From positions 13,577-43,337 of the IMG/VR virus record IMGVR_UViG_3300013195_000005: a stretch of DNA of 29,761 nucleotides, one strand, 5' to 3'. The notes under the pieces were generated by a model. That model was not told the DNA's origin. It was given only the letters and a program-made list of their open reading frames with translations, and did not search any database. The DNA is from a virus. The position numbers and the translations under genes were made by a program. This document shows, piece after piece, positions 1 through 8,281 of this stretch (position 1 is the first letter of the stretch; every line of letters starts with the position of its first letter).

Positions 1-509
1 GTGGTTATCGCCGGGTAATTTCTACACTCAAAGAGCAGTATGAAGTTATCATCTTGCCTGAACTTGAGGCTGATGATGCAATGGGTATTTATGCTACGGC
101 TAACCCTGGCAACATCATTGTCTCACCAGACAAGGACATGCGCCAGATACCTGGCAAGCTGTACAACATGGATGAGGTTATGACCATTACACCTGAACAA
201 GGTATGCAATGGCATCTTATTCAGACACTTGCAGGTGATCAGACGGATGGTTATAGCGGTGTTCCTGGCATCGGTGTCAAGCGTGCAGTCTCCTTGTTTG
301 AAGAGGATGGTTACACATGGGATACTGTTGTCAAAGCTTTCGCTTCAAAAAATTTAGATGAAGAGGTAGCCTTGACCAATGCACGACTCGCACGCATTCT
401 TACACACGAAAATTATGACGCAACAACAAGAACCGTCATACCCTGGTGTCCCACCGATGCCAGTATTGGAGCTGACAATGGAGCAGAGTTTCAAGCTAAG
501 ACGGCTTGA
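1..509 (+). CDS. 5'-3' exonuclease, T7 gp6-like (5' truncated)
   Basis: The reading frame is open from the window edge (first full codon at base 3), so the N-terminus is missing and about 168 residues remain. Visible motifs belong to the FEN/5'-nuclease family: ELEADDAMG (acidic metal-site cluster), SPDKDMRQIPG, and LAGDQTDGYSGVPGIGVKRA, which combines an acidic motif with the helix-hairpin-helix DNA-binding loop. In T7, gp6 degrades host DNA to supply nucleotides and removes RNA primers. The position at the head of a nucleotide-metabolism block fits this role. The conserved C-terminal part (ARLARILTHENYD) is followed by a short divergent tail whose DNA also encodes the start of the next gene in another frame. 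The TTG at 54 is an internal Leu codon, not the start. Identity is secure; only the truncation limits description. Confidence 0.93.
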   Translation, partial: GYRRVISTLKEQYEVIILPELEADDAMGIYATANPGNIIVSPDKDMRQIPGKLYNMDEVMTITPEQGMQWHLIQTLAGDQTDGYSGVPGIGVKRAVSLFEEDGYTWDTVVKAFASKNLDEEVALTNARLARILTHENYDATTRTVIPWCPTDASIGADNGAEFQAKTA

Positions 510-654
510 GGATCTGCTTCCAGCAGCTGACAAAGACGACATCATCACATTATTTTTAGCACTACAGAAGCAGAACTTCTGCCTTAGTAACACCGTATCA
601 AACCTAGTCAAAAAGTGGCCAACTCACCACCCCACTACACCCGAGGAAACATAG
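415..654 (+). CDS. nblA: NblA-like phycobilisome degradation adaptor (candidate)
   Basis: This 79-residue protein overlaps the exonuclease 3' end by 95 bases in another frame. Its core (residues about 18-68) can be laid without gaps on cyanobacterial NblA as I remember it: LTMEQSFKLRR matches the NblA start (L-[ST]-x-EQ-x-F-x-L), a DD/LF segment follows in the middle helix, and NLVKKW matches the C-terminal helix with the L-x-K spacing implicated in phycobiliprotein binding. NblA is a small helical dimer that links phycobilisomes to the Clp protease. Freshwater cyanophages and some uncultured marine cyanophages are known to carry it. ATG 415 gives a proline-rich leader; ATG 457 would give 65 residues, closer to the usual NblA length of about 60. 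Neither start has a clear ribosome site. The homology is by eye, so this is a strong candidate rather than a proven nblA. Confidence 0.62.
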   Translation: MTQQQEPSYPGVPPMPVLELTMEQSFKLRRLEDLLPAADKDDIITLFLALQKQNFCLSNTVSNLVKKWPTHHPTTPEET

Positions 655-896
655 AAGTCTGGGATTTCATTAGAGATCAGCAGCTCAACTACCACCTTGG
701 CAATGCAATCAAATACATTTGCCGCGCTGGCTACAAGGACAGCAAGGTAGATGATCTTAAAAAAGCTATCCACTATCTTGAAAATGAACTCCTACATACA
801 CACGAGCCTGCTCGATCAGGCGGAGCACTTTCGATCTGCGTACAACCTGACTCCTGGGAAGGAACACCGGACTACACAGAAGACTTTGATCGATGA
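615..896 (+). CDS. DUF3310 family protein (nucleotide-metabolism associated)
   Basis: This 93-residue protein starts at GTG 615 inside the 3' end of the preceding gene. Residues 6-60 carry the DUF3310 signature: HYTRGNIEVWDFI, then LGNAIKYICRAGYKD, then DDLKKAIHYLENEL. The same domain occurs in T7 gp1.7, which has been described as a nucleotide kinase, but the short cyanophage versions have no proven activity. The last 30 residues are divergent and overlap the start of the MazG-like gene. The overlap chain exonuclease, NblA-like, DUF3310, MazG, ribonucleotide reductase suggests co-translation and a shared role in nucleotide supply. The GTG start is chosen because the domain begins immediately after it and no in-frame ATG precedes it in a sensible place. 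Family assignment is confident, biochemical role is not. Confidence 0.85.
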   Translation: MANSPPHYTRGNIEVWDFIRDQQLNYHLGNAIKYICRAGYKDSKVDDLKKAIHYLENELLHTHEPARSGGALSICVQPDSWEGTPDYTEDFDR

Positions 897-1155
897 GGAA
901 TGGTCAGAGTTCCATGAAGCATACCATTTAAAAGATGAGTGTGAACAACTCAAGGAACTTGCCGACCTAGTGTATGTATGTTTTCAATTTGCTGCATCAC
1001 AAGAGTGGGATCTCGATGAAGCTATGCACAGAGTACACGCTTCTAATATGTCTAAGCTTGGTGAAGATGGCAAACCTATCTACCGAGACGACGGTAAGGT
1101 TCTAAAAGGACCGAACTACAAACCACCTACATTGAACGATCTAATTCTTAAATGA
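784..1155 (+). CDS. MazG-like / PRA-PH type NTP pyrophosphohydrolase
   Basis: This is a 123-residue all-alpha NTP pyrophosphohydrolase. The family's metal-binding signature is visible as DEEWSEFHEAY (EExxE) followed by KELADLVYV (ExxD) one helix later. The C-terminal half has the phage-typical pattern HASNMSKLGEDGKP, DGKVLKGPNY and a closing proline-rich strand. Such enzymes hydrolyse (d)NTPs to monophosphates; in phages they are thought to adjust nucleotide pools or alarmone levels, which remains a proposal. I chose ATG 784 (MNSYIHTSLLDQAEHF) over ATG 751 because the upstream 11 residues lie within the DUF3310 gene and look like shadow sequence. It ends in an ATGA overlap with the reductase large subunit. 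This is not the MazG type with the longer two-domain layout of E. coli. Confidence 0.86.
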   Translation: MNSYIHTSLLDQAEHFRSAYNLTPGKEHRTTQKTLIDEEWSEFHEAYHLKDECEQLKELADLVYVCFQFAASQEWDLDEAMHRVHASNMSKLGEDGKPIYRDDGKVLKGPNYKPPTLNDLILK

Positions 1156-2528
1156 CCACCTCTTATATCTCACGCACTGGACGTGTACAATCGTGGCTTG
1201 ACAATCCTGAGTCACGGCTTCCAGTATCATGCACAGTCTTTGTAGTCGAAGATTCGATGGAAGGTCCAGAGGGTATTGAAGCCAGCTGGAGGTTTGCTAG
1301 TCACGCTCTACGTAATGGAGCTGGTGTTGCTATCCACTTGTCGAAGCTGCGACCCAAAGGAACCGAAACAGTTAAAGGAAACGATAGGCTTGTTGCAAGC
1401 GGACCAGTCTCCTTTGGCAAAATCTTCTCAACGCTCAATGAAATTCTCAGGCGGGGTGGCACCTATCGGAACGGTGCAATTGTGTTGCATTTGGATTTAT
1501 CTCATCCTGATGCCCTTGACTTTATTACTGCTTCTCGATCCGATTTACCTTGGGTCAAGCGATGCATCAACATCACCCCCGACTGGTGGGAAAGGTGTAC
1601 GTTTAAGGAGGAACTCCTCTACGGAATTAAATCCGGTGACATTTGGCTCAACAAAGTAAAGTACGATGAAGACAACAAACGAATCCGAGGAAATGTATGC
1701 CTCGAAGTATACTTGCCCTCACGAGGAACGTGCCTCTTGCAGCATATCAATCTCGGTGCCTGTGAGTTCGACGACATCCCAACAGCTTTCAGTGAAGGTA
1801 TGTCCCAACTGTGCGATCTCCATAGCAAAACAGGTGTTGGATCAACTGGCGAATACCTCCCAGCTGCAACCGATCGACAAGTGGGACTTGGAGTACTCGG
1901 ACTTGCAAACCTTCTTCGGCGGTACGGAGTAACCTACGAGCAGTTCGGTGTTGCCTTGGAGCAGTACCTGGATGGTGAGATGGTGAAGACTCCTGCCTTT
2001 GAGCTGGTTGTACAGCTTGGATTGGGTATTGATTTGGCTGCTAGCATTGCACGTGGAAACAATATGGTACGTGCCTTTGCTATTGCACCGACTGCATCCT
2101 GCAGTTACCGCAGCAAAGACTTAGATGGGTACACCTGTACCCCAGAGATTGCACCTCCTATCAGCCGTACGGTTGACCGGGATAGCGATACATTTGGTGT
2201 ACAAACATATGATTATGGCGATGTAGAGATCGCTAGTGAAGTCGGTTGGGACAATTACAAGCGTGTTGCTGATGGCATCATGCGATTGTTCGATCGTACG
2301 GGACTTCTTCACGGGTATAGCTTCAACAGTTGGAGTGATGTCGTCACATATGACGAAGCCTTTATCGAAGAGTGGTTGGAATCTCCGCAAACCTCCCTTT
2401 ACTACAGTTTGCAAGTCATGGCTGACACTCAAGATAAGTCTGATGTGTATGCAGCACTTCAAGATGATGCTGATGACCTTCTTGCAGACATACTAAATAA
2501 AGAACTCGAATGTGACTGTCAAGAATGA
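1152..2528 (+). CDS. Ribonucleotide reductase, class I large (alpha) subunit, compact cyanophage type
   Basis: At 458 residues this is far shorter than the usual 700-800 and has no ATP-cone domain. The catalytic set is present: Cys27 in VSCTVF (equivalent of E. coli Cys225), Cys183 and Glu185 in NVCLEVYLPS (Cys439/Glu441), Cys194 (Cys462), the RQVGLGVLGLANLL helix, and the APTASCS loop. The adjacent tyrosine pair in SLYYSLQV (Tyr417-Tyr418) corresponds to the radical-transfer Tyr730-Tyr731 pair of class I enzymes, and the C-terminal CDC carries the cysteines used for re-reduction. The enzyme makes deoxyribonucleotides for phage DNA synthesis. Related podovirus enzymes (P-SSP7) were once called class II; the tyrosine pair and the downstream small subunit support class I. 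Lack of an ATP cone means no classical dATP overall-activity control. ATGA overlap joins it to the next gene. Confidence 0.92.
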   Translation: MTTSYISRTGRVQSWLDNPESRLPVSCTVFVVEDSMEGPEGIEASWRFASHALRNGAGVAIHLSKLRPKGTETVKGNDRLVASGPVSFGKIFSTLNEILRRGGTYRNGAIVLHLDLSHPDALDFITASRSDLPWVKRCINITPDWWERCTFKEELLYGIKSGDIWLNKVKYDEDNKRIRGNVCLEVYLPSRGTCLLQHINLGACEFDDIPTAFSEGMSQLCDLHSKTGVGSTGEYLPAATDRQVGLGVLGLANLLRRYGVTYEQFGVALEQYLDGEMVKTPAFELVVQLGLGIDLAASIARGNNMVRAFAIAPTASCSYRSKDLDGYTCTPEIAPPISRTVDRDSDTFGVQTYDYGDVEIASEVGWDNYKRVADGIMRLFDRTGLLHGYSFNSWSDVVTYDEAFIEEWLESPQTSLYYSLQVMADTQDKSDVYAALQDDADDLLADILNKELECDCQE

Positions 2529-5314: not shown

Positions 5315-6097
5315 ATGGCTGAACTACTCACCTACGATCCTAGTAACGACCCACAAGCAATTCAAATCGCTGAAGAGCGGGACGCCGAGACCCTTGCTGT
5401 CGGTCAAGCAATGGAAGATGCACAAAACAACCTGCTTGCAGGTAAGTATAAAAGTGCACAGGATCTAGAAAAAGCTTACATTGAGCTGCAACAAAAACTC
5501 GGATCAAATGATCAGCAAGCCGAACCCCAGCAAGAAAATACGACTCAACCAGAGTCTGAATCCAATCCAACGTTTGACCTATTCGATTCCATTGATGATG
5601 AGATGTCAGATGGTGGTCAACTCAGCGAAGCTTCGATTGAGAAACTCACTGCAATGGATAGTAAAGATCTTGTTGATGCGTATTTTAAGTATCAAGACAC
5701 TCTAGAAGATGGTGCTCCTGTTGGAGGGAGAGAACTATCTGACAGTGAAGTATCTGCTATCTTCGATAGTGTTGGTGGTGAAACGCAGTATCAACGGATG
5801 ACTGCGTGGGCTGCTGAAAACCTTGACCCTACATTAGTTGATGCATTTGACAACGTTATCGAAAGCGGTGATGTTGCTACAATCAACTTGATGCTGAAGG
5901 GTCTTCAATCACAATACAAGGACAACGTGGGCTACGAAAACAACATGATTCAAGGTAAACCTGCTCAAGCGGTAAACGGTTATCGTAGTCAAGCCGAAGT
6001 CGTGCGTGACATGAACGACCCTCGCTACGATCGTGACCCTGCTTATCGGCAGGAGATCATGAACAAACTTGCTAATTCACCTGGTCTTAACTTCTGA
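5315..6097 (+). CDS. Capsid assembly scaffolding protein, T7 gp9-like
   Basis: This 260-residue acidic protein sits directly after the portal gene and before the capsid gene, the T7 gene 9 position (T7 gp9 is about 307 residues). It is rich in Glu, Asp and Gln. Residues 15-55 and 95-125 read as helices (for example AGKYKSAQDLEKAYIELQQKLG, split here by its natural helix caps), a middle stretch of Gln/Pro/Ser/Glu is likely disordered, and the C-terminus NDPRYDRDPAYRQEIMNKL is a helix-rich segment typical of phage scaffolds, which bind the capsid protein through their C-termini. Scaffolds guide procapsid assembly and are then lost. There are no cysteines or membrane segments. The TGATG junction couples it to hli. 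Confidence 0.88.
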   Translation: MAELLTYDPSNDPQAIQIAEERDAETLAVGQAMEDAQNNLLAGKYKSAQDLEKAYIELQQKLGSNDQQAEPQQENTTQPESESNPTFDLFDSIDDEMSDGGQLSEASIEKLTAMDSKDLVDAYFKYQDTLEDGAPVGGRELSDSEVSAIFDSVGGETQYQRMTAWAAENLDPTLVDAFDNVIESGDVATINLMLKGLQSQYKDNVGYENNMIQGKPAQAVNGYRSQAEVVRDMNDPRYDRDPAYRQEIMNKLANSPGLNF

Positions 6098-6288
6098 TGT
6101 CTACTGTTATTGAAGACGGTGGACGGACAAACATTTACGCAAAGGAACCACCCATGTACATTGACGAGAACTCTATTCCTCACAACGAAAAGGCTGAACG
6201 ACTCAACGGACGTCTTGCTATGCTTGGCGTCATTGCTGCAATCGGTTCGTACGCTGTGACTGGTCAACTTATCCCCGGAGTCTGGTAA
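6097..6288 (+). CDS. hli: High-light inducible protein (Hli), chlorophyll-binding
   Basis: This 63-residue protein contains the Hli/CAB signature in residues 30-60: KAERLNGRLAMLGVIAAIGS (ExxNGRxAM with the conserved Glu, Asn and Arg that bind chlorophyll), followed by YAVTGQLIPGVW at the end of its single transmembrane helix. Hli proteins sit in the thylakoid membrane, bind chlorophyll and carotenoid, and protect photosystem II and its assembly intermediates from excess light. The N-terminal 28 residues are the usual phage leader. It is placed between scaffold and psbA exactly as in P-SSP7-type cyanopodoviruses, so both photosynthesis genes would be transcribed with the capsid genes. TAATG overlap leads to a tiny basic ORF. 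Confidence 0.95.
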   Translation: MSTVIEDGGRTNIYAKEPPMYIDENSIPHNEKAERLNGRLAMLGVIAAIGSYAVTGQLIPGVW

Positions 6289-6759: not shown

Positions 6760-7110
6760 ATGAAATTTCTCGCTATCCTCCCCGCAACCCTCCTCGCCGC
6801 TGCTCCCGCACTGGCAGGTCCGTATGTGAACGTCGAAAACAACTCTGGTTTTAACGGTTCCAACTATCAGGGCATGGCTACTGATTTCCATCTCGGCTAC
6901 GAAGATGGTGATGGTCTCACCTCTTGGGGTGTGCAAGCTGGTCCTACCGTCTTCTCCCCTGATGACGGTGAAGCTGAAACTAAACTCACTGGTAAGGTGT
7001 TCGGCTCTGTTGCCGCCACCAAGCGTCTCGACGTCTATGGCGAGATCTCTTTCGTGTCCGACGACACCAACTCCTATGGTACTAAAGTCGGTCTGAAGTA
7101 CAAGCTCTGA
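6760..7110 (+). CDS. Secreted small beta-barrel-like (outer-membrane type) protein
   Basis: This 116-residue protein has a clear signal peptide: MKF, a hydrophobic core, and APALA followed by Gly20 as the probable signal peptidase I site. The mature part alternates polar and non-polar residues in about six strands (YVNVENNSGF, TDFHLGYEDG, SWGVQAGPTVF, KLTGKVFGSVAAT, RLDVYGEISFV, YGTKVGLKYKL) with Gly/Asp/Asn turns, as in small outer-membrane barrels. The coding strand uses C-ending codons heavily, like the neighbouring capsid gene, suggesting high expression. It is not a T7 gene. It could modify the host outer membrane, for example to block further infection, but this is inference. A hairpin follows its stop. 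Confidence 0.72.
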   Translation: MKFLAILPATLLAAAPALAGPYVNVENNSGFNGSNYQGMATDFHLGYEDGDGLTSWGVQAGPTVFSPDDGEAETKLTGKVFGSVAATKRLDVYGEISFVSDDTNSYGTKVGLKYKL

Positions 7111-7204: not shown

Positions 7205-8281
7205 ATGACCGCTGTACTTTCTCAACAACGGAGGTCTGCCTGGGAAGAATTTTGTTCTTGGGTAACCTCTACTAATAACCGACTTTACGTTGGATGGTTC
7301 GGAACTCTTATGATTCCAACCCTACTGACCGCAACCGTCTGCTTTTTGGTTGCATTCATCGCTGCTCCCCCTGTGGACATCGATGGCATTCGTGAACCCG
7401 TTGCCGGATCTCTACTCTATGGAAACAACATCATCTCAGGAGCAGTCGTTCCCTCAAGTAACGCAATCGGGCTACATCTTTACCCAATCTGGGAAGCCGC
7501 TTCACTTGATGAGTGGCTCTACAATGGAGGACCATATCAACTCGTCGTCTTCCACTTTCTCATTGGCGTCTTCTCTTACATGGGACGTGAATGGGAACTT
7601 AGTTATCGACTAGGCATGAGGCCTTGGATCTTTGTCGCATATTCTGCACCAGTCGCTGCCGCAACAGCTGTATTCCTTGTCTACCCTTTCGGACAAGGCT
7701 CTTTCTCTGATGGAATGCCGTTGGGAATCTCGGGTACCTTCAACTACATGTTTGTTTTCCAAGCTGAGCACAACATTCTTATGCACCCTTTCCATATGCT
7801 TGGGGTCGCTGGCGTTTTTGGCGGTAGTTTGTTTTCAGCTATGCATGGTTCCCTTGTTACTAGCAGCTTGGTGCGTGAAACGACTGAAGATGTTAGCCAG
7901 AACTATGGGTATAAGTTCGGGCAAGAGGAGGAGACGTATAACATCGTCGCTGCTCATGGTTACTTTGGGCGTCTCATCTTTCAATACGCTAGCTTTAATA
8001 ATTCTCGCAGTCTCCACTTCTTCCTGGCTGCCTGGCCTGTGCTTGGCATCTGGTTTACTAGCCTTGGTGTGTCTACTATGGCGTTTAACCTGAACGGGTT
8101 TAACTTCAACCAGTCAATCATCGACTCACAAGGTCGTGTGATCAACACCTGGGCTGACATCCTGAACCGTGCTGGTTTGGGTATGGAAGTTATGCACGAG
8201 CGTAATGCTCACAACTTCCCACTGGACTTGGCTGCTGCTGAGTCTGCACCGGTTGCATTGACTGCACCAGCAATCGGTTAA
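7205..8281 (+). CDS. psbA: Photosystem II reaction centre protein D1
   Basis: This full-length D1 of 358 residues, uninterrupted by introns, is one residue shorter near its N-terminus than the usual numbering. It contains the five transmembrane helices and the cofactor ligands, including [16 protein letters not shown], the [15 protein letters not shown] segment with the P680/non-haem-iron histidines, and the C-terminal [14 protein letters not shown], where His331, Glu332, His336, Asp341 and Ala343 match the Mn-cluster ligands H332, E333, H337, D342 and A344. CtpA cleavage would follow Ala343, removing 15 residues. Residue 129 (standard 130) is Glu, the form linked to high-light D1. Phage D1 replaces photodamaged host D1 so photosynthesis continues during infection. 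Its place between scaffold and capsid genes is typical of cyanopodoviruses. Hairpins lie on both sides. Confidence 0.98.

Follow-up and report, generated by a model that had tools for sequence, protein, structure and literature searches.

An nblA homologue between the exonuclease and nucleotide-metabolism genes of a T7-like cyanophage

The nblA locus and its reality as a gene

The window, by which we mean the whole 29,761-nucleotide stretch of DNA analyzed here, spans positions 13577-43337 in a virus record 43,337 bases long. The phage is T7-like, since the part of the record upstream of the window encodes a T7-type RNA polymerase along with a primase-helicase, a Thy1 thymidylate synthase and a piece of a terminase. 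Near the start of the window, a short open reading frame had been proposed, in a sequence-only reading, to encode the phycobilisome degradation adaptor NblA. The features of the locus and of the photosynthesis genes farther along are:

3-509, plus strand: T7-like 5'-3' exonuclease, C-terminal part (PF01367, E = 7e-7, below the curated cut-off; upstream sequence; annotated orthologues)
415-654, plus strand: nblA, a 79-residue NblA homologue (PF04485, PDB NblA matches, conservation, AlphaFold model)
475-501, plus strand: N-terminal motif T21-R29, TMEQSFKLR, with L20 before it; lines up with the LSLEQQFxxR stretch of cyanobacterial NblA, close to where ClpC is reported to make contact
604-618, plus strand: C-terminal L64-V65-K66-K67-W68; lines up with the L-x-K...W of cyanobacterial NblA, which has been implicated in binding phycobiliproteins
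615-896, plus strand: DUF3310 protein, called 'nucleotide kinase' in some records (PF11753, E = 1.8e-17)
751-1155, plus strand: MazG/PRA-PH-like pyrophosphohydrolase (PF01503, E = 1.7e-8); the coordinates are those of the longest ORF, whose real start is probably more internal
1152-2528, plus strand: ribonucleotide reductase (RNR), next in the conserved block (annotated orthologues in S-SBP1 and S-TIP37)
6097-6288, plus strand: hli-like protein, a weak chlorophyll a/b-binding match (PF00504, 21.2 bits, just below the cut-off of 22.3)
7205-8281, plus strand: psbA, photosystem II D1 protein (similar at the DNA level to psbA as annotated in many cyanophages)

The phage thus carries psbA together with an hli-like gene. 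Upstream of psbA, positions 6760-7110 encode a beta barrel like a cyanophage outer-membrane protein (PF24653, E = 1.8e-40). The exonuclease gene is cut by the window start, its N-terminal part lying upstream behind a run of N; a frameshift in this gene was considered and dropped, as that run of N accounts for the gap immediately before the window. Between the DNA polymerase and the exonuclease, also just upstream of the window (L133:12718-13329), lies an endonuclease VII-like ORF with a weak match (18.3 bits, cut-off 23.6), and an endonuclease VII is annotated at the corresponding place in phage WH11-B.

The nblA frame runs from an ATG at 415 to a stop and encodes the protein MTQQQEPSYPGVPPMPVLELTMEQSFKLRRLEDLLPAADKDDIITLFLALQKQNFCLSNTVSNLVKKWPTHHPTTPEET. 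This start agrees with what is seen in the relatives: at the same distance from the EQ motif, almost every one has an in-frame ATG or TTG and then Thr. An alternative ATG at 379, twelve codons upstream, is open but absent from many relatives, making 415 the likelier start. The gene shares 95 nt with the exonuclease gene at its 5’ end and 40 nt with the DUF3310 gene at its 3’ end. These overlaps, and the fact that several records leave nblA unannotated, would fit an accidental open frame, a reading that the selection test refutes and to which we assign virtually no probability. A scan of viral contigs found relatives encoded on at least 105 viral stretches, 80 of which were kept, and 62 distinct proteins entered the selection test. 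In the 105 nt free of both neighbors (510-614), pN is 0.15-0.18 against a pS of 0.77, a pN/pS of 0.19-0.23 with synonymous sites near saturation, and nblA is under strong purifying selection outside the overlaps. Within the exonuclease overlap pN/pS is 0.46, as expected of doubly coding DNA, and here the invariant residues (P14, P16, T21, E23, Q24, K27, R29) sit in the nblA frame while the exonuclease tail varies in both sequence and length. The related phage NATL2A-133 (L137) cleanly lacks nblA and shows a natural empty arrangement of the site, with the exonuclease gene directly overlapping the next gene. The frame at 415-654 is a real gene.

Family membership, motifs and predicted fold

Profile searches place the protein in the family that the sequence-only reading had named. 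PF04485 (NblA) matches at E = 3.3e-6 and 27.9 bits, above the gathering score of 25, over profile positions 1-49 of 50; the gathering score is also passed in a search of the phage’s own genome, and 48 of 51 relatives match the same profile. Against the PDB, the NblA structure 3cs5 is the top chain both in a phmmer search with the single protein (E = 0.0043) and in a family-profile search (E = 1.7e-4), with more NblA chains lower down (two and one, respectively), each not significant alone. We then compared a profile of the viral proteins with one built from NblA collected from cyanobacterial genomes. The two align end to end over 55 columns (P = 1.5e-4), the best of 20 column-shuffled controls reaching 0.064. 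L20, E23, Q24, F26, R29, L50, Q53, L64, K66 and W68 are conserved in both sets. With cyanobacterial NblA the identity is low, about 22%, and the NCBIfam equivalog NF045916 scores 23.1 bits against a cut-off of 100, so the protein is not filed under that equivalog, though it is homologous. On this sequence evidence, we regard the 415-654 protein as belonging to the NblA family, though diverged.

Both functional motifs of NblA appear to be present. At the N-terminus, LTMEQSFKLR shares L20, E23, Q24, F26 and R29 with the cyanobacterial LSLEQQFxxR, and E23, Q24, K27 and R29 are invariant in the viral set. By alignment this corresponds to the conserved N-terminal NblA motif to which ClpC binding has been assigned (PMC4103541). 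At the C-terminus, L64-V65-K66 is in register with the cyanobacterial L-L-K in the profile alignment, with the spacing the sequence-only reading had described. L64 and W68 are invariant in the viral set and K66 is found in 77% of it. The alignment thus points to the L-x-K implicated in phycobiliprotein binding, whose Leu and Lys we take to be part of the conserved C-terminal NblA site of Anabaena NblA. The gapless alignment of about 50 residues that had been proposed holds for about 48, with a one-residue gap between L-x-K and the Trp (K66-K67-W68 against K-H-Q-W).

An AlphaFold model of the single chain has a helix at 22-37, a loop and a second helix at 40-66, with pLDDT above 90 in the core and low confidence in the Pro-rich N-terminal tail. 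A core of about 60 residues is therefore predicted to adopt the helix-loop-helix fold of NblA. A Foldseek search with this model against the PDB and BFVD returned zero significant matches of any kind, the model being a poor query of two short helices and flexible tails. The cyanobacterial proteins (PF04485; 1ojh, 2q8v, 2qdo, 3cs5) share with it the helix-loop-helix, LxxEQxFxxR, and L-x-K plus a Trp near the C-terminus, and 3cs5 also has a Pro-rich lead-in, LPPLPD, like that at the N-terminus here. The viral protein differs from them in its longer N-terminal tail, the one-residue shift before the Trp, and many helix-2 residues. Many helix-2 positions conserved among the viral proteins differ from cyanobacterial NblA, so the bound surface could differ as well.

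Given the short length of the protein, its modest Pfam score (27.9 against 25) and a fold search without a match, one might suppose that a small helical protein with another function resembles NblA by accident. We consider this very improbable, since 48 of the 51 relatives match NblA, the profile alignment runs from one end to the other, keeps both functional motifs in register and far outdoes the shuffled controls, and NblA tops the PDB sequence search twice.

nblA among cyanophages and the likely host

The gene occurs at the same place in the Synechococcus phages S-SBP1, S-RIP2, S-TIP37, S-CBP1, S-CBP3, S-CBP4, S-SRP01, S-B28, WH11-B and DSL-LC07, and in Mediterranean metagenome contigs. The name NblA appears in none of the 37 matching phage records, among the features listed. 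Annotators have widely overlooked the gene, its short length and its overlap with the genes on either side being the probable cause. The novelty implied in the sequence-only reading is nonetheless not borne out, as nblA of marine T7-like cyanophages is already published: PMC9602691 refers to its prediction in 14 cyanopodovirus isolates by Nadel et al. 2019, and PMC12892361 and PMC13386980 cite Nadel et al. 2025. In these marine phages (S-TIP37, S-SBP1, S-RIP2, KBS-P-1A, S-CBP1/3/4), the gene order is, as here, exonuclease-nblA-DUF3310 or MazG-RNR, and the proteins are 60-77% identical to ours over the matched part, with like motifs. The S-TIP37 protein scores 27.8 bits with Pfam, the same as the 415-654 protein. 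Unlike the latter, S-TIP37 has Thr, and S-CBP1 and S-CBP4 have Ser, at the Lys-66 position, and the S-CBP1 and S-CBP3 proteins carry two extra loop residues. In S-RIP1, an HNH endonuclease ORF (L085:2886-3419) starts at the 3’ end of nblA; small indels, which may be sequencing errors, seem to break the nblA, exonuclease and polymerase frames of that phage. The freshwater cyanophages Ma-LMM01, MaMV-DC and PaV-LD, of other phage groups, also encode viral NblA. During infection, freshwater phage nblA is expressed and phycobilin is lost (PMC9602691, PMC4103541); in phylogeny this nblA is reported to lie far from the marine cyanopodovirus cluster (PMC9602691). The gene at 415-654 is thus an unremarkable and well-conserved orthologue of an auxiliary metabolic gene that is known and has been studied before.

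Relatives are also found in phages of Prochlorococcus, which lacks both phycobilisomes and nblA (PMC7439483). P-SSP7 (PSSP7_019A), P-SSP3 and NATL1A-7 carry an NblA-like gene there too, diverged to about 48-53% identity. The P-SSP7 copy (L083:2968-3276) scores too low for detection by Pfam NblA; its loop is two residues longer, and Glu stands in place of Lys-66, where the NATL1A-7 copy (L134) has Gln. A change of the C-terminal Lys to Glu or Gln is shared by P-SSP7, NATL1A-7, P-SSP2 (L136), whose record lists Synechococcus as host, and two contigs filed under Prochlorococcus (L092, L093), and one uncultured relative has Asp. The copy in P-GSP1 (L135:904-1131, host MED4) retains the Lys but is otherwise degenerate: HQ replaces the EQ motif, the C-terminal Trp is gone, and identity to the P-SSP7 protein is 39% across 61 residues. 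The Lys change in Prochlorococcus phages is a lead suggested by few sequences and not a result. The residue is not obligatory, as several Synechococcus phages have Thr or Ser there, and the Synechococcus phage WH11-B resembles P-SSP7 in its two extra loop residues and absent Pfam match, so neither trait marks Prochlorococcus phages. Some contigs with the phage nblA are filed under bacterial genomes: ALPF01000041.1 (L092, Prochlorococcus W8), QCFJ01000008.1 (L093, SAG AG-363-G03), NZHS01000063.1 (L094, Flavobacteriales MAG) and L090-L091 (TMED88). Either infection of the sampled cells or mis-binning probably explains why phage contigs are filed there.

The sequence-only reading had argued from nblA for a Synechococcus host. 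From this gene alone the argument is weak, because phages of phycobilisome-less Prochlorococcus (P-SSP7, P-SSP3, NATL1A-7) keep a relative, but the genome as a whole points the same way. The closest isolate genomes are S-SBP1 and S-RIP2, from WH7803, with 69-70% of a 20-kb query covered at 78%. The GC content of the window is 45.7%, compared with 40.5% at the P-SSP7 locus and 48-50% at the S-SBP1, S-RIP2 and S-TIP37 loci. From whole-genome similarity and GC content, we favor Synechococcus as the better guess. A recent transfer of nblA from a present-day picocyanobacterial host was also considered and looks unlikely: PF04485 matches in 4 of 121 genomes in a sample of the picocyanobacterial family, one of them above the cut-off, against 38 above it among 98 genomes sampled across the phylum.

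Proposed role and the question of cargo

Very probably, the gene is a viral nblA whose product steers the host antenna to the host Clp protease. Its family, motifs, purifying selection and position come from the analyses above; by analogy with studied NblA proteins, the product would be expected to dimerize, bind ClpC and phycobiliproteins, and bring about antenna loss to the benefit of the phage. In this model, nblA would be expressed from the DNA-replication and nucleotide-metabolism block, and the helix-loop-helix of its product would pair into a four-helix dimer. The C-terminal face may then bind phycobilisome proteins while the N-terminal motif binds the host ClpC chaperone, so that the antenna would be delivered to the host Clp protease. 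Light harvesting would be lowered and amino acids freed for phage synthesis, and psbA could meanwhile keep photosystem II supplied with D1. In line with such a role, nblA from marine viral metagenomes led to phycobilin loss in S. elongatus, as PMC9602691 relates in citing Nadel 2019.

The protein could instead be a Clp adaptor that derives from NblA but has given up the phycobilisome as its main cargo, and either recruits other host proteins to ClpC or occupies it. The persistence of relatives in phages of Prochlorococcus, a host without phycobilisomes or nblA (PMC7439483), is suggestive of this, as are the Glu or Gln replacing the C-terminal Lys in most Prochlorococcus-phage relatives and the helix-2 residues unlike those of cyanobacterial NblA. 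For the copy in the window, we think such a shift improbable: it belongs to the PF04485-matching branch and keeps the Lys, its nearest isolates infect phycobilisome-bearing Synechococcus, and degradation of host antennae by viral NblA is published (Nadel et al. 2025, Nature 648:434-442, as cited in PMC12892361 and PMC13386980). Somewhat less remote, though still unlikely, is the broader idea that the cyanopodovirus NblA lineage comprises Clp adaptors acting beyond the phycobilisome, with the ClpC-facing motif kept and the cargo helix diverged, most of all in Prochlorococcus phages (Lys to Glu or Gln). If this is true, cyanopodovirus NblA can deliver other host proteins for degradation.

Antenna degradation through the host Clp protease remains our preferred reading of the gene described here. 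The window contributes one further viral nblA orthologue to a family whose literature runs ahead of its annotation. According to PMC12892361, citing Nadel et al. 2025, viral NblA ties infection to lost host light harvesting, an effect put at as much as 5% of photosynthetic light capture worldwide.
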